From Candidatus Methylobacter titanis (GTDB taxonomy: Bacteria > Pseudomonadota > Gammaproteobacteria > Methylococcales > Methylomonadaceae): a stretch of 64,000 bases of DNA. Shown in pieces: positions 30,579-36,416 of this stretch. The translations under genes and the position numbers were made by a program. The number at the start of each line of letters is the position of its first letter. Within the stretch, counting starts at the first letter, position 1. The DNA is taken from contig JAQSDX010000003.1 in the NCBI GenBank assembly GCA_029946125.1, forward strand, positions 1 through 64,000, in the 5' to 3' direction. The notes under the pieces are model-generated. The model was not told where the DNA came from. It did no database searches and saw only the letters and a list, made by a program, of their open reading frames with translations.

Positions 30579-32285
30579 CCGGAAGAATTGGAAGAAGAAT
30601 TAAACAAGTGGGTTGAGGTCGAGCGGATCAAGGATGCGAGCAATTACCTTCGCGGCACGCTGGTCAAGAGCCTGGAAGACCCGCTGACCGGCGCGCTGGC
30701 CGAGGACGACACCCAGCTATCCAAGTATCACGGCATTTACCAGCAGGATGACCGTGATTTGCGGGACGAGCGCCGCAGGCAAAAACTGGAGCCTCACTAC
30801 CAGTTTCTGGTGCGCATCCGCGTACCGGGCGGAGTGTGTACGCCGACCCAGTGGCTGGAAGTAGACCGCATCGCCAATACCTACTGCAACCCTACTATCC
30901 GGTTGACCACGCGGCAGGCTTACCAGCTGCACGGCATCGTCAAGCGCGATTTGAAAAAAACGATTGCGGAAATCAACGCCGCCTTGCTGGATACCATTGC
31001 CGCTTGCGGCGACGTGAACCGCAACGTCATGTGCAATCCCAACCCTTATCAATCGAGGTTGCATGGGGAAGTCTACGAATATGCCCGCCGCCTCAGCGAG
31101 CATTTGACGCCCAGGACCACCGCCTACCATGAAATCTGGCTGGACGAGGAACTGCTGTCCTCAAGCCGACAGGACGAAGAGCCGATCTACGGCAAACATT
31201 ACCTGCCGCGCAAATTCAAGATAGCGCTAGCCATTCCGCCGAGCAACGATGTCGATCTGTTTGCCAACGATCTCGGCTTTATTGCGATCGCCGAGAACGA
31301 TCATCTGCTCGGCTTTAACGTCAGCGTCGGCGGCGGCTTGAGCATGACCCACGGCGACACGTCGACCTATCCGCGCTTGGCCGATGTGATCGGCTATTGC
31401 CCCAAGCACAAGACGCTGCAAGTCGCCGAGGAAATCGTCAAGATTCAGCGCGATTTCGGCGATCGAACCCAGCGCAAACACGCGCGCTTTAAATACACCA
31501 TTGAGGACCGGGGCCTGGACTGGTTAACGTTCGAGCTCAACCGGCGCTTGGGCTGGGCTATGGAGCCGCCCAAACCTTTCGTCTTCGAACATTCCGGCGA
31601 TCGCTACGGCTGGGTCGAAGGCGCTAACGACGCTTGGCATTACACGGTGTTTATCCCGAACGGCCGCATACTCGACACCGAGGATTACCCGATGATGACC
31701 GGGCTGCGCGAGATTGCCAAAGTGCATGACGGCGATTTCAGGCTCAGCGCCAACCAGAATTTGCTTATCGGGCAGGTCAGCAGTAAGCGGAAACCGGTCA
31801 TTGATGCGCTGCTGGAAAAATACCGGCTGGCTAATACTCATGACCAGACCGGGTTGCGCCTGAATTCGATGGCCTGCGTGGCTTTTCCGACCTGCGGTCT
31901 GGCCATGGCTGAAAGTGAGCGCTACTTGCCGTCGCTGCTCGATAAGCTCGATGTGATCATCAAACAGGCCGGGCTTGAACACGATCCGATCCTGATCCGC
32001 ATGACCGGTTGCCCGAACGGCTGTGCGCGTTCGTCGCTGGCGGAAATCGGTTTTATCGGCAAAGCGCCGGGCAAGTACAACCTGTATCTGGGCGCGGGTT
32101 TTTACGGCCAACGCCTGAATAAGCTGTACCGCGAGAATATCAACGAGGAACAGATTTTTGCCGAACTAAGTCCTATTATTCAACGGTATGCCCAAGAGCG
32201 GGAACCGGGCGAACGCTTCGGCGATTTTGTGATCAAGGCCGGTTATGTCAAGGAAGTGCTGGCGGGCAAAGATTTCCACTCATAA
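30564..32285 (+). CDS. cysI: Sulfite reductase (NADPH) hemoprotein beta subunit
   Basis: Reduces sulfite to sulfide with six electrons at a sirohaem coupled to a 4Fe-4S cluster. The 573-residue product has the sulfite reductase repeats ([30 protein letters not shown]). Cluster-binding Cys pairs occur in [15 protein letters not shown] and [12 protein letters not shown]. The C-terminus has [15 protein letters not shown] and [13 protein letters not shown]. The start [10 protein letters not shown] at 30564 has a good ribosome binding site. It is probably co-transcribed with cysJ despite the palindromes, which could set the CysI:CysJ ratio. Confidence 0.96.
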
Positions 32286-32409
32286 GAATGTCACGCCAGC
32301 TGAATTATTTACCGGCAACGCATTTACCCCGAGTAAAAATTTCTTAGCCATTGCATGAGGTCGGTTAAGTTGATGAAAAATCACCGGTGCCGACAATAAA
32401 TTCAAAGGA

Positions 32410-33288
32410 CTAGCCATAGACGCTGGCTCCGGAATCACTTGATTCCGACAACAATACGGGGGCTAATGATCGTTCATAATAACTACCCTGCACCAGATCA
32501 AAACCGGTATTGCGAGCCAGGGAATCAGATCTCTTTTCATCAATATGTTGCAGAATACTTTGCCCGCCTGTATTGGTCACCAAGGCTTTCAATTGGTGTA
32601 GTTTTGCCGGTAAGGTATTGTCACGTACATTATCCAGATACCGCGCTGATAAGCTGACATAATCGGGGGATAATTTTTGAATGAATTCAAATGATTGACT
32701 TTCTTTAGCAACGGAATCGAATTTAAGTCCAATTTGATAACCTCGATGTCGATAGTTTTCCAAGCCTTCAATCAGTACTTGATGATAACGTATATATTGG
32801 CTGTTTACGGCCAATATGATAACGATATTTTTAGTTTCTAATCCGCACTGCGTAATGACTTCTTGAAAATAAGCGCCGTGATCCTGTTTCACGCCAACTA
32901 TATGGCGTGGATCTACCTCCAAAAAAAGCAGGTCGTGCAAATGCGTTAACGGTAAAAAATTTAGCATGTGCACGGTGCGGGATAAGCGGTCAAAATTAAT
33001 GATAGATTCAAATTCATTGGTTTGGAGTGAATGATGAGGCAACAGATTTTCAATTTCGCTTGAATACAGATGCTGAACTTCATAAGTGGACACTTTGATT
33101 TTGGCGGTATGTCCAATGATCGCCGCAGGTTTTAAGGTCTGTCGTAGCGGCGAAAAACTGCTGTCTATCCGAACCGGGCCGAACAGGCCGCTTATTTTCC
33201 CCTGTTCCAGAATAAAGGGCCTAAAACTGGAGCGATGCTCCTGCCCGAATCGGTCATTGAAATATTCAACTAAATTTTGTAATGGCAT
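32410..33288 (-). CDS. Degenerate EAL-domain protein
   Basis: The 292-residue product resembles the c-di-GMP phosphodiesterase (EAL) fold. It has strand patterns such as LLFLEVDPRHIVGVKQDHGA, ETKNIVIILAVNSQYIRYHQ, YRHRGYQIGLKFDSV and a C-terminal TGFDLVQGSYYERS that corresponds to the FDLIQGYY-like end of EAL domains. I do not see the ExLxR motif or the metal-binding acidic set, so it is probably a binding or regulatory protein rather than an active enzyme. The start at 33288 (MPLQNLVEYF, with AGGAAT upstream) is preferred over 33396, because the extended frame reads through a terminator hairpin. Confidence 0.7.
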   Translation of the reverse strand: MPLQNLVEYFNDRFGQEHRSSFRPFILEQGKISGLFGPVRIDSSFSPLRQTLKPAAIIGHTAKIKVSTYEVQHLYSSEIENLLPHHSLQTNEFESIINFDRLSRTVHMLNFLPLTHLHDLLFLEVDPRHIVGVKQDHGAYFQEVITQCGLETKNIVIILAVNSQYIRYHQVLIEGLENYRHRGYQIGLKFDSVAKESQSFEFIQKLSPDYVSLSARYLDNVRDNTLPAKLHQLKALVTNTGGQSILQHIDEKRSDSLARNTGFDLVQGSYYERSLAPVLLSESSDSGASVYG

Positions 33289-33327
33289 AACTTTATTCCT
33301 TAACTCTAATAAAAACGTGTGAGCATC

Positions 33328-33386
33328 AGCGGGTTTCCGCTTATGCCATTCTCTCCCGGCGAAAAAAAAGCGGGTCGGAACCCGCT
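33328..33386 (-). terminator. Terminator with possible antiterminator, leader of the EAL gene
   Basis: On the minus strand AGCGGGT, a short loop and ACCCGCT (33386-33369) are followed by eight T, a good intrinsic terminator about 75 bases before the EAL start. A second AACCCGCT lies downstream (33335-33328), within its own small hairpin AGCGG/CCGCT. It could pair with the first arm instead and break the terminator. The arrangement is that of transcription attenuation, though no ligand or leader peptide is evident. Confidence 0.55.
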
Positions 33387-33396
33387 CAAGAAACAT

Positions 33397-33764
33397 CCTT
33401 GTATAGTTAGGAGGACGGACTTAAAAAGCTTCATCGTTTTGATGAGATTGGAAATAGTGTAGTGCGATTTTTGTTATTAATATAATGATATTATTCGATG
33501 TTTATATCGAATAAATTGATATATAGGCGGTATTTTTCATTCAGCCAACAAAGCGGTTAAGGGCCAAAAGGATCAACTTCATTGAAGATGATAGCCGGTG
33601 GGTGCTTTATTACGCTTTCCGCGTTTAGTGATATTGCGTTCGTCAAGAGCGCTGCACGACAATGATACCGCTGCAACGCCTATACGGCCCGTCGCGTTAG
33701 GCTGTGGCAAATGTTGCGGTCAGAAGAGATTAAAGGGGAATTCCGCATGAGAACGATTAAGAAC
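33397..33764. other. Gene-free AT-rich stretch with one inverted repeat
   Basis: No credible gene in 368 bases. The left part is strongly AT-rich and holds a perfect inverted repeat TTATTCGAT / ATCGAATAA with six bases between (33491-33514), a possible operator for the EAL transcript. The right part is of mixed composition with no feature recognised. Confidence 0.5.
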
Positions 33765-33793
33765 GAGCAAGAGGGTGAGTGTGTCTCTTGCTC
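33765..33793 (-). terminator. Hairpin after the Cys-rich secreted protein gene
   Basis: GAGCAAGAG and CTCTTGCTC form a perfect nine-base stem around an eleven-base centre, starting 13 bases after the stop codon. The following GTTCTT is only a weak T run. Confidence 0.6.
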
Positions 33794-33805
33794 GCCTGAG
33801 GATGA

Positions 33806-34168
33806 TTAACTTTTTCCGGGCAACATGCCGACCGAACCGGGTTTGATGCGTTTGCAAGTGACAACCATATCTTCCAGATGACACTGGCTTTTGCCTTGAT
33901 TAGCGCCAGCGCATGGTGTGCAGGCCGCTTTACCTTCATCCTTCACTTTTTCAACATGCCAGCCGTAACCTTGCGACTGGCAAAATGTTTTGCTGTATCT
34001 TTTAATATTATAGGCTTTTGATGCGGTTGCAATGGCTTGAGATTCTACGTCACATCCCGCCGAGGGCAGCGTATTAGCCATAAGATCCCGGTAAATATAT
34101 TCTGTCGCTAACGTTGTTCCGGAAAAAAAAGCTAATGCCACCGATAGGCAGATCAAATTAAGTTTCAT
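33806..34168 (-). CDS. Secreted Cys-rich protein of unknown function
   Basis: Not recognised. The 120-residue product has a signal peptide (MKLNLICLSVALAFFSGTTL, cleavage near ATEY) and a mature part of about 100 residues. The mature part carries six Cys (GCDVES, FCQSQG, ACTPC, QCHLED, TCKR), enough for three disulfides, so it is probably periplasmic or exported. An AGGAGAGCACC ribosome binding site precedes the ATG. A perfect palindrome GATAAC-A-GTTATC lies 50 bases upstream, a possible operator. Three tiny ORFs lie upstream on the same strand and may be part of the same transcript, separated by 136 bases. Confidence 0.75.
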   Translation of the reverse strand: MKLNLICLSVALAFFSGTTLATEYIYRDLMANTLPSAGCDVESQAIATASKAYNIKRYSKTFCQSQGYGWHVEKVKDEGKAACTPCAGANQGKSQCHLEDMVVTCKRIKPGSVGMLPGKS

Positions 34169-34217
34169 GGTGCTCTCCTGATTAGTATTTTACGCGGTGT
34201 GTACCCACGCTAAGGTT

Positions 34218-34230
34218 GATAACAGTTATC
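34218..34230. promoter_or_regulatory. Perfect 13-bp palindrome upstream of the secreted protein gene
   Basis: GATAACAGTTATC is fully symmetric around its central A. It lies 50 bases before the gene at 34168 and could be a regulator binding site. No cognate regulator is nearby. Confidence 0.4.
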
Positions 34231-34304
34231 GCCTATCTACAGACAGGTTAATTAAAGCCTGCTGTCTCTTTTAATAGGGCGTCTTGTCACGAGGATAATG
34301 AACT

Positions 34305-34478
34305 TCAGTTCAATACTCGGATATTCATCTGGGCTGTTTCTTCTTCCAGCTGCTGTTTGATGGGAGCGAATTTGTCATCTTCGCTTTGCTTGACTACGGT
34401 GATAACTATCAATAAAGCAGCTATTGTACAACCCACATACAGCCAGAAATTGTCTTTTTTTTGTGCTATTGCGCTCAT
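34305..34478 (-). CDS. Small single-pass membrane protein (57 aa)
   Basis: A 57-codon frame with an AAAGGT ribosome binding site eight bases before the ATG. It reads a short polar N-terminus (MSAIAQKKDNFW), then one membrane helix (LYVGCTIAALLIVITVV), then an acidic/amphipathic cytoplasmic or periplasmic tail (KQSEDDKFAPIKQQLEEET). Such a layout is very unlikely by chance. I do not recognise the family; it may be a small membrane regulator or an assembly subunit. It starts four bases after the stop of the preceding 34-codon ORF, suggesting coupled translation. Confidence 0.65.
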   Translation of the reverse strand: MSAIAQKKDNFWLYVGCTIAALLIVITVVKQSEDDKFAPIKQQLEEETAQMNIRVLN

Positions 34479-34482
34479 TTTT

Positions 34483-34587
34483 TTATACCTTTTGTTGTGT
34501 TAAATCATCAATGGACGTACCAAGGTTGATATGAGTACTATGCCTTTCATCAACGCAGGAACCGATTTCCACCTGAGGTTTATGCAT
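34483..34587 (-). CDS. Small ORF (34 aa), unknown
   Basis: Begins inside the stop region of the preceding ORF (ATGCATAA overlap) and reads MHKPQVEIGSCVDERHSTHI, then NLGTSIDDLTQQKV. The sequence is soluble-looking and contains one Cys and two His. A GAGG lies immediately before the ATG, too close for a classic site; a GTG five codons in is an alternative start. Support comes from its tight packing between two neighbours and its protein-like composition. Function unknown. Confidence 0.4.
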   Translation of the reverse strand: MHKPQVEIGSCVDERHSTHINLGTSIDDLTQQKV

Positions 34588-34666
34588 CCTCTGGATAAAC
34601 TACTTCACGTTGATATTTTGAGCGGTCAACAATCTTGGTGGCCAAGTTGGCACAAGCATGATGCAT
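34580..34666 (-). CDS. Small ORF (28 aa), first of a three-ORF chain
   Basis: A 28-codon frame with an AGGA ribosome binding site six bases before the ATG, directly downstream of a strong sigma-70-type promoter. It reads MHHACANLATKIVDRSKYQR then EVVYPEDA. Its stop overlaps the start of the next ORF by eight bases. It could be a genuine micro-protein or a leader peptide controlling the following genes. No family recognised. Confidence 0.45.
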   Translation of the reverse strand: MHHACANLATKIVDRSKYQREVVYPEDA

Positions 34667-34684
34667 AAAATATCCTCTTTTTAG

Positions 34685-34731
34685 TATAGTAGCGGATCAA
34701 TACTATAAAAGAATCTCAAGAATACTGTCAA
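34685..34731 (-). promoter_or_regulatory. Sigma-70-type promoter with overlapping operator
   Basis: On the minus strand TTGACA (34731-34726) and TATAGT (34707-34702) are 18 bases apart, a near-consensus promoter. The -10 is part of a perfect inverted repeat TATAGTA-N9-TACTATA (34707-34685) that also covers the transcript start, the usual position for a repressor. It drives the three small ORFs. Confidence 0.65.
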
Positions 34732-34946
34732 TTAATATCGATTCGATACGGGATGGGTTTGTTAAAACGGTTCTGCGAACCTGGTTCGCAATTGATGCAC
34801 TTCGTTCCCGGTACAGTGCTACTGCGCCTGCATTCGTCAGGTCATCCTATGACCCTAAAGCAAATTCTGCGACAATAAGATGTTATAATCTGCTTATAAA
34901 TTGCTGGGCTGATGCCTGCTATCACTATTTACTCATCAACGCATTT

Positions 34947-36416
34947 ATGAACGAAACAACAGTATTCAAACCTTGTGATCTGGTTATCTTTGGCGCTTTA
35001 GGCGATTTATCCCGCCGTAAGTTGCTTATTTCTCTGTATCGACTTGAAAAAGCTAATTTGCTTGAAGCTGATACTCGTATCATTGGCATAGATAGGCATG
35101 AGGGCGATAATTCAGGGTTCATCGAGATTATCCATGAAAGTTTGCAAGAGTTTTTAAATGAAATAATCGATGAAAAAATCTGGGCGAGGTTTTCGGCAAG
35201 ATTGGCTTATCTGAAAATAGATTTAACTCAGATGGATCAATACCCGCTGTTGAATACCCTTATTGATGGGCAGTCCAGGGTCATGGTGAATTATTTTGCC
35301 GTAGCCCCTTCCTTGTTTACCAATATTTGTCAGGGACTGTCTAAGTGCGGGGTTTTGAATGAAGAATCGCGCATGGTGATGGAAAAGCCGATAGGCCACG
35401 ACCTTCAATCTTCAAAAGATATTAATGATGCAGTTGCCGAGGTGTTCAACGAAAAACAGGTCTATCGTATCGATCATTATCTGGGTAAAGAAACGGTACT
35501 TAATTTATTAGCCTTGCGTTTTGCCAATGCTATTTTTACGACCAACTGGGATCACAATACCATTGACCATGTTCAAATTACCGTCGCTGAAGAAGTCGGT
35601 ATTGAAGGGCGCTGGGATTATTTTGATAAAACCGGTCAGTTGCGTGACATGCTGCAAAATCATTTGTTGCAGATTCTGACTTTTGTAGCGATGGAGCCGC
35701 CAGTCAATCTGGAGGCAAAAAGCATACGCAATGAAAAAATAAAGGTTCTTGCCGCGCTACGGCCGATTACCAAGGAAAATGTCGAGCTAAAAACCGTTCG
35801 TGGACTGTACTCGGCGGGGGAGATCAAGGGCAAGCCGGTGCCGGGCTATCTTGAAGAAGTCGGCGCTAATACGGAAAGTACCACAGAGAGCTTTGTCGCG
35901 TTGAAAGTGGCTATTGATAACTGGCGTTGGGCGGGGGTGCCGTTTTATCTGCGCACGGGTAAGCGGATGTCCTATAAGCGTACTGAAATCGTTATTAAGT
36001 TCAAACGCTTGCCGCATAACATCTTTAAAGAAAGCTTTGACGAGCTGCCGTCTAATAAACTGATCATTCACTTGCAGCCGAATGAAGGCATAGAAATTCA
36101 GATGCTGAACAAAATTCCGGGTATCGATGAAAATATTAAACTGCAAAAAACCAAACTGGATTTAAGTTTTTCTGACACCTTCAAAAACAGCAAGATTTTC
36201 GGCGGTTATGAGAAGTTGGTGCTTGAAGCCATGCGGGGCAACCCCACCTTATTTCTGAGTCGTGAAGAGATTGAGCAGGCATGGACTTGGGTCGATTCAA
36301 TACAGGATGCTTGGGCGCATGCCAATGTTGCACCGAAACCTTACTCCGCAGGTACTTGGGGGCCAGAGGCCGCTGACCAATTAATCGCCAGAGACGAAAG
36401 AGCTTGGGAAGAATGA
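34947..36416 (+). CDS. zwf: Glucose-6-phosphate 1-dehydrogenase
   Basis: Oxidises glucose 6-phosphate to 6-phosphogluconolactone with NAD(P). The 489-residue product shows the nucleotide motif FGALGDLSRRKLLISLYRL, the substrate-site signature RIDHYLGKETVLNLLALRFA and later GVPFYLRTGKRM. The length is normal. A TATAAT at 34884-34889 may be the -10 of its promoter, though no good -35 is visible. edd follows 84 bases later and eda after that, so it feeds the Entner-Doudoroff route. No lactonase gene is in the cluster. Confidence 0.96.
   Translation: MNETTVFKPCDLVIFGALGDLSRRKLLISLYRLEKANLLEADTRIIGIDRHEGDNSGFIEIIHESLQEFLNEIIDEKIWARFSARLAYLKIDLTQMDQYPLLNTLIDGQSRVMVNYFAVAPSLFTNICQGLSKCGVLNEESRMVMEKPIGHDLQSSKDINDAVAEVFNEKQVYRIDHYLGKETVLNLLALRFANAIFTTNWDHNTIDHVQITVAEEVGIEGRWDYFDKTGQLRDMLQNHLLQILTFVAMEPPVNLEAKSIRNEKIKVLAALRPITKENVELKTVRGLYSAGEIKGKPVPGYLEEVGANTESTTESFVALKVAIDNWRWAGVPFYLRTGKRMSYKRTEIVIKFKRLPHNIFKESFDELPSNKLIIHLQPNEGIEIQMLNKIPGIDENIKLQKTKLDLSFSDTFKNSKIFGGYEKLVLEAMRGNPTLFLSREEIEQAWTWVDSIQDAWAHANVAPKPYSAGTWGPEAADQLIARDERAWEE

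Follow-up and report, generated by a model that had tools for sequence, protein, structure and literature searches.

A MarR-type operator suggests that a membrane and secreted protein pair of Methylococcales belongs to a hydroxylamine or nitric oxide response

What do the small genes behind a repressible-looking promoter in this genome do, and what controls them? The window is a 64,000-nucleotide stretch of a Methylobacter-type genome; among named relatives, Methylobacter sp. assemblies are the nearest. (G and L numbers are our labels for genomes and loci; G000 is the window's genome.) On the minus strand, a sequence-only reading had described a promoter with a -35 box TTGACA (34726-34731), an 18-base spacer, and a -10 box TATAGT (34702-34707) that lies inside the inverted repeat TATAGTA-N9-TACTATA (34685-34707). 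Downstream on the same strand it placed ORFs of 28 codons (34580-34666), 34 codons (34483-34587) and 57 codons (34305-34478), linked by an eight-base overlap and a four-base gap, and then, after 136 bases, a secreted 120-aa ORF with six Cys (33806-34168) and a hairpin (33764-33795). All of these features are where that reading put them, with that geometry; the hairpin is strong and, on sequence only, a candidate terminator. The unit is flanked by zwf (34947-36416, plus strand) and an EAL-domain gene (32410-33396, minus strand), and Rfam had no match within 32000-36000 at E 1.

Judging by their conservation, the 57-aa and 120-aa genes are real: they form an adjacent pair that is conserved across Methylococcales and is under purifying selection. 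We scanned the genomes of 84,980 species and found 135 loci, of which we kept 80; these are titled as Methylococcales genera or as unnamed gammaproteobacterial or proteobacterial assemblies. Among 274 sampled Gammaproteobacteria, the pair matched in three, all Methylococcales, and the other 271 were unmatched. Close relatives of the 57-aa protein adjoin the secreted-protein gene, and the C-terminal motif of the 57-aa protein is found upstream of that gene in 74 of the 80 loci. For the 57-aa gene, nine comparisons gave dN of 0.007-0.177 versus dS of 0.197-1.83; for the 120-aa gene, ten comparisons gave dN of 0.007-0.097 and dS of 0.092-0.917. Because the promoter block and both of these ORFs are conserved, they are more than chance. 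Also supported is the idea that a small membrane protein and a secreted partner rich in Cys form one compact regulated unit behind a repressible-looking promoter. A 13-bp palindrome that had been pointed out between the two genes (GATAACTGTTATC, 34218-34230) is present but is not conserved (among the 21 loci L031-L051, only the window's has it). Besides a MarR-family gene and a DUF2024 gene, which are described below, we recognised no neighbours of the pair beyond local synteny (the zwf-edd side, in some Methylobacter).

Neither protein belongs to a family in Pfam or NCBIfam, or matches the PDB by sequence. The 57-aa protein would span the membrane once: it has one predicted helix (identified by eye), with an invariant D-x-F-W-x-Y at the start and MNIR at the end in 13 aligned sequences. 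It has no Pfam match at E 10, and the 13 membrane-protein relatives have only weak, scattered Pfam matches (best E 0.0022, in one of the 13, which we disregarded). It does not qualify as an ArfB-type small membrane protein (NF051435; 12.3 bits versus a cut-off of 40). The membrane protein also has remote paralogs, 34-41% identical, that stand singly, at G000:C77:9407-9541 (L158:4354-4551) and at L160:5037-5219. Judged by eye, the one in G000 lies near a RegBA-like pair of sensor and regulator, and the one in G018 near an FNR-like regulator.

We found matches to the 120-aa protein in 41 of 61 genomes, including the window's. It is predicted from its N-terminal sequence to be secreted, and the six Cys after the signal peptide (C39, C63, C83, C86, C96 and C105) are invariant in an alignment of 59 sequences (A3). 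It is probably disulfide-bonded. A seventh Cys lies inside the signal peptide. The structure model is fairly confident (mean pLDDT 84.8), and searches with it gave no significant fold match: the best Foldseek E was 0.19 and the best VIA-align Z 6.3, spread over unrelated folds. We set aside matches to RPB7-like and dodecin folds (Z about 6) because unrelated folds tie with them. Pfam matches among the 59 members were weak and scattered (best E 0.0011, in two of them), and we disregarded them. The protein is not a cytochrome P460 or another c-type cytochrome: the A3 consensus contains no CxxCH, and none of the 59 members matched PF16694 at E 0.1. A second subfamily of secreted six-Cys proteins lacks the C-terminal tail PGSVGMLPGK (L109:6809-7144 and L110:6630-6977), and in those two regions no membrane-protein partner is grouped with it.

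The promoter of the pair contains two copies of one operator. The inverted repeat at the -10 box is real, but it is the weaker copy and does not stand alone: a second, better palindrome, which had been missed, lies just upstream of the -35 box. We call the upstream copy O1 (GTATCGAATCGATAT, 34735-34749, minus strand) and the downstream copy, which overlaps the end of the -10 box, O2 (GTATTGATCCGCTAC, 34689-34703, minus strand). They match 11 and 10 of the 12 informative positions of the 15-bp consensus GTWTCGNNNCGAWAC, respectively, and are 46 bp apart. We spotted the operator by eye in one genus and then scored it elsewhere, and the consensus was set after the first genera had been seen. The palindrome occurs twice, 45-47 bp apart, around the -35 and -10 boxes in 57 of 77 relative loci (two sites with at least 9 of 12 positions each; the 77 are the 80 kept loci minus L182, L197 and L222, which have too little upstream DNA), and as the loci share ancestry, these counts are not independent. 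TTGACA-like and TATA-like boxes lie between the operators in all 57, and the other 20 loci do not have the full dual operator. Dinucleotide shuffles of the same upstream regions gave a dual operator 0.29% of the time.

Within the genus, we aligned the promoter and leader of 20 of the 23 genomes. The promoter block GTATCGAATCGATATTTAGTTGACAG...TTATAGTATTGATCCGCTAC, which contains two versions of the one palindrome, is conserved in 19 of the 20. The exception is G004, which is also the only genome of the genus in which the -10 box is not kept; there, a MarR gene adjoins the pair and yet there are no good operators. O1 is at the same place in 19 of the 20 genomes (with an extra mismatch in G010, and absent from G004) and in other genera as well, and in certain other genera O2 departs less from the consensus (G028, for instance, has GTATCGACTCGATAT). 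One operator upstream of the -35 box and another over the -10 box of a near-consensus promoter is an arrangement that would fit repression.

Searching for the palindrome led to a second target gene in several genomes, which encodes a member of the MarR family whose C-terminal part carries the motif C-X2-C-X11-C-X15-C (MarR4C). Its MarR domain scores 44.1 bits against PF12802 (cut-off 27), and the structure model, which is of middling confidence (mean pLDDT 71.4), has Foldseek matches to MepR, MarR and others with E values down to 4e-7. The four Cys (C149, C152, C164 and C180) are invariant in 17 aligned sequences, and we infer that they form a metal or Fe-S site. Like other MarR-family repressors (PF12802, PF01047), this protein has a winged-helix domain, the MarR fold, and a palindromic site before its own gene. 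Unlike the MarR models that we listed from Pfam and NCBIfam, it has a four-Cys C-terminal extension outside the matched stretch, and also unlike MarR-family repressors, it is associated with two sites at the pair's promoter, spaced 45-47 bp from each other. In the window's genome, the MarR gene (G000:C81:20918-21466, 93% identical to the query) has one operator, ATATCGATTCAATAC, 77 nt upstream of its start. More broadly, 27 of 36 copies have an operator with at least 10 of 12 positions within 150 nt upstream and nine do not (this count is from 37 loci of 57 places, 36 of them read, with second copies and several distant genomes left out). Among control genes, 18 of 226 had such a site within 300 nt, and this may be high, as the controls were not screened for adjoining targets.

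The regulator and the operator also travel together beyond the methanotrophs. In 10 genomes from other gammaproteobacterial families, whose MarR proteins are 39-46% identical, a site with 11-12 of 12 positions lies no more than about 100 nt from the regulator gene in eight; one has a site at 0.57 kb and one has none. In 18 of the 80 loci, the MarR gene shares the locus with the pair (mostly 0.5-2.6 kb apart, and 5.5 kb in one case). Across 61 genomes, 37 have both the pair and the regulator, 10 have neither, 10 have the regulator alone (six of these have haoA), and four have the secreted protein alone. For this co-occurrence, Fisher's test gives p = 0.0009 (0.0045 outside the genus), with phylogeny uncorrected. 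The four genomes with a match to the secreted protein and no MarR are two incomplete genomes (G013 and G022) and two with weak matches (G044 and G050). The pair's operator is most likely bound by this regulator. In G024 and G030 (L152 and L153) there are tandem copies of MarR4C, the first of which lacks the four-Cys tail, which is a natural test of the tail. DUF2024 genes lie beside MarR4C in methanotrophs and in another gammaproteobacterium (L303:2746-3006, L254:4852-5205 and L217:3317-3685); in Methylotuvimicrobium buryatense 5G (L217), the DUF2024 gene (115.6 bits), the regulator and the pair are within about 3 kb.

The other genes that have the operator upstream give a clue to the function of the pair. 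We found haoA, the gene for hydroxylamine oxidoreductase, in 17 of the 61 genomes; the 23 same-genus genomes, several of which are incomplete, yielded none. We identified it from PF13447 (494.5 bits), seven or eight CxxCH motifs, and its position before haoB (HaoB was confirmed by TIGR04392, 252.6 bits versus 200); in NCBIfam, haoA had only a weak match to hydrazine dehydrogenase. Of 19 haoA matches, 16 have a readable start, and the operator is found at 12 of these and not at the other four (3 of the 12 sites are at or just inside the chosen start, and the site in G032 is some 0.4 kb upstream). Two of the sites are identical in sequence, GTTTCGATACGAAAC.

The operator is also found at one subfamily of cytochromes P460, which we separated from the others by a motif of our choosing (HVKSM and near forms). 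It is present at 7 of 9 HVKSM-type loci in Methylococcales (9 of 11 loci were examined) and at 5 of 7 loci outside the order (7 of 10 examined), versus none of 12 loci of the other Methylococcales type (12 of 28 examined; a 10-of-12 match in L265 falls within the gene itself, outside the counted stretch). In the ten genomes from other families, a P460 gene (PF16694) is near the regulator in five, plus two by motif only. Some gene orders join these parts directly. G031 has haoA-haoB-[two sites]-P460-MarR-DUF2024; in G058, haoA is divergent from P460 with a 12-of-12 site between them; and in G057, haoA is divergent from the pair with operators between them. G057 is the only genome in which the pair adjoins haoA, and we found neither haoA nor an HVKSM-type P460 beside the pair among the 80 named loci.

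Exact matches to the operator in eight genomes fall at 23 distinct sites, versus 9 for the reversed pattern. Nine of the 23 are at the regulon genes named here. Of the other 14, about 8 are inside open frames and 3 are upstream of a sulfate-permease-family gene. These three sites are some 60-120 nt upstream of a PF00916 gene in genomes from two families (L325, G046:C1:3977245; L330, G058:C1:558833; L338, G060:C1:3232627), and this gene may belong to the regulon too. A defence against hydroxylamine is no obvious explanation for them.

Since the same operator precedes haoA and one subfamily of P460, we place the pair in a hydroxylamine or reactive-nitrogen regulon. Specifically, we propose a MarR-controlled response to hydroxylamine or nitric oxide (NO) in which the pair serves as the envelope arm specific to methanotrophs, and from the comparison of these genomes we give this a probability of roughly two in three. 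The pair shares with haoAB (haoA, PF13447; HaoB, TIGR04392) the operator upstream and, in some genomes, an adjoining regulator or pair; unlike haoAB, it encodes no haem protein, and it persists in genomes that gave no haoA match, such as the 23 same-genus ones. The secreted member resembles cytochrome P460 (PF16694) in being secreted, by sequence, and in that one P460 subfamily has the operator; it differs in having six Cys with neither CxxCH nor a PF16694 match. The window's genome has no match to haoA or P460, so the hydroxylamine link there rests on its relatives. A P460 match is present in 6 of the 23 same-genus genomes. In this Methylobacter-type genus, where we found no haoA, the clear operator targets that we saw are the pair and the MarR gene itself, so the pair may be the regulator's main output there.

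Methane oxidisers convert ammonia to toxic hydroxylamine via methane monooxygenase, which bears on how much methane is removed in fertilised soils and waters and is a source of N2O (background, with PMC11928373 and PMC12636513). According to PMC11928373, methanotrophs cannot capture energy from hydroxylamine, and HAO and P460 may remove it; according to PMC12636513, transcripts of haoA, haoB and cytL rose with ammonia in one metagenome bin of a methanotroph. How hydroxylamine is sensed, and how methanotrophs without hydroxylamine oxidoreductase cope with it, are not explained in the available parts of either paper. Our literature search, with most subscription papers outside its scope, found nothing that links a MarR regulator to hao or P460, and did not find the protein pair, its operators, or their link to hao and P460 in print; in a paper on hypoxia and NO in Methylobacter (PMC6977074), a search of the main text for the terms "MarR" and "hypothetical protein" found neither. 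The type of regulation is ordinary (a MarR protein and a palindromic operator); any novelty would lie in the two proteins, the operators at their promoter, and the connection with hao and P460.

How might the system work? We picture a two-gene operon of Methylococcales, with a strong sigma-70-type promoter, that encodes a 57-aa inner-membrane protein and a secreted 120-aa protein. Dimers of the regulator on O1 and O2 would block RNA polymerase; hydroxylamine or NO would damage or ligate the four-Cys site and release the regulator; and the pair would then be made and would act on the periplasmic side of the inner membrane. The analysis shows the genes and their conservation, the operators, and the connections made by sequence and gene order; from these we infer the binding, the sign of control, the signal and the activity of the pair. 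The regulon suggests that the pair helps the cell to withstand hydroxylamine or NO. The fuller version, in which the pair is a haem-free envelope defence against these compounds under a MarR protein whose four-Cys site senses reactive nitrogen, is a tentative proposal that we consider well short of an even bet. If it is true, it would account for the survival of ammonia co-oxidation by Methylobacter and other methanotrophs that lack hydroxylamine oxidoreductase. The candidates are named (regulator, operator, targets and an order-specific protein pair), and they can be tested by deletion in culturable strains such as Methylotuvimicrobium buryatense 5G.

The regulator and operators could be as we describe while the signal is general thiol, metal or oxygen stress, with haoA and P460 being just two of the targets. 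Four-Cys sites can sense metals or oxygen. DUF2024 and thioredoxin-like genes adjoin the MarR gene in some genomes, the exact operator precedes a sulfate-permease-family gene in three, and the paralogs of the membrane protein lie near the RegBA-like pair and the FNR-like regulator (by eye). However, the most consistent enzyme targets are haoA and one subfamily of P460, and the available text of PMC11928373 ties both HAO and cytochromes P460 to hydroxylamine, which makes a general stress signal rather unlikely.

We consider it more doubtful still that the pair, under the same regulator, has nothing to do with reactive nitrogen and instead helps with the structure or assembly of the methanotroph membrane or of methane monooxygenase. 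Such a role would suit a pair whose sampled matches are confined to the methanotroph order and whose membrane-plus-periplasm layout has no haem motif or known domain, but it leaves aside the operator that the pair has in common with haoA and P460, as well as the divergent arrangement of haoA and the pair in G057.

This leaves the 28- and 34-codon ORFs, which had been read as the first two genes in a chain of three, or as part of a peptide-controlled operon. Neither idea held up. These ORFs are poorly conserved: in 18 of the 20 same-genus genomes they lack a start or have a broken frame, and their starts and lengths are kept in just two, the window's genome and G015, which are the only ones with intact peptides (G015 is identical to G000 in the 28-codon frame). 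In 7 of the 20, five of which use other starts, the 28-codon frame stays open over its last 24 codons, and in 4 the 34-codon frame does so over its last 27. A dN/dS check of the small ORFs had been suggested, and it bore out the 57-aa frame and not the other two: relative to G000, dN/dS was 0.04-0.24 for the 57-aa gene versus a near-neutral 0.64-0.87 and 0.53-1.2 for the 28- and 34-codon frames, which are short stretches and make for a weak test. The indels in the same-genus alignment are not multiples of three. On this evidence, neither the two ORFs nor the 13-bp palindrome goes beyond what chance would give. The two ORFs are probably leader and not genes, within a 5' leader (34479-34695, minus strand; the transcription start is taken from the -10 box) that, given these indels and the starts lost in relatives, is probably untranslated.

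The tight stop/start spacing, the open frame ends, and a leader hairpin that is conserved in some Methylobacter could instead point to leader peptides acting on the genes downstream through attenuation or translational coupling. A leader-peptide attenuator requires a conserved short reading frame, and the leader does not have one; with both start and length preserved in just 2 of the 20 genomes, near-neutral dN/dS, other first-frame starts that lie in O2 (itself at or before the inferred transcription start) or elsewhere, a hairpin in only 12 of 65 loci, and much shorter leaders possible in other genera, we consider leader peptides very improbable. The hairpin itself (GTTGAT-N18-ATCAAC, 34525-34554, minus strand) arose in none of 1300 mononucleotide shuffles, versus its 12 of the 65 loci tested. 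Across nine aligned leaders, its stem is near-invariant and its loop varies in length, and in Methylobacter it may add a further level of control.
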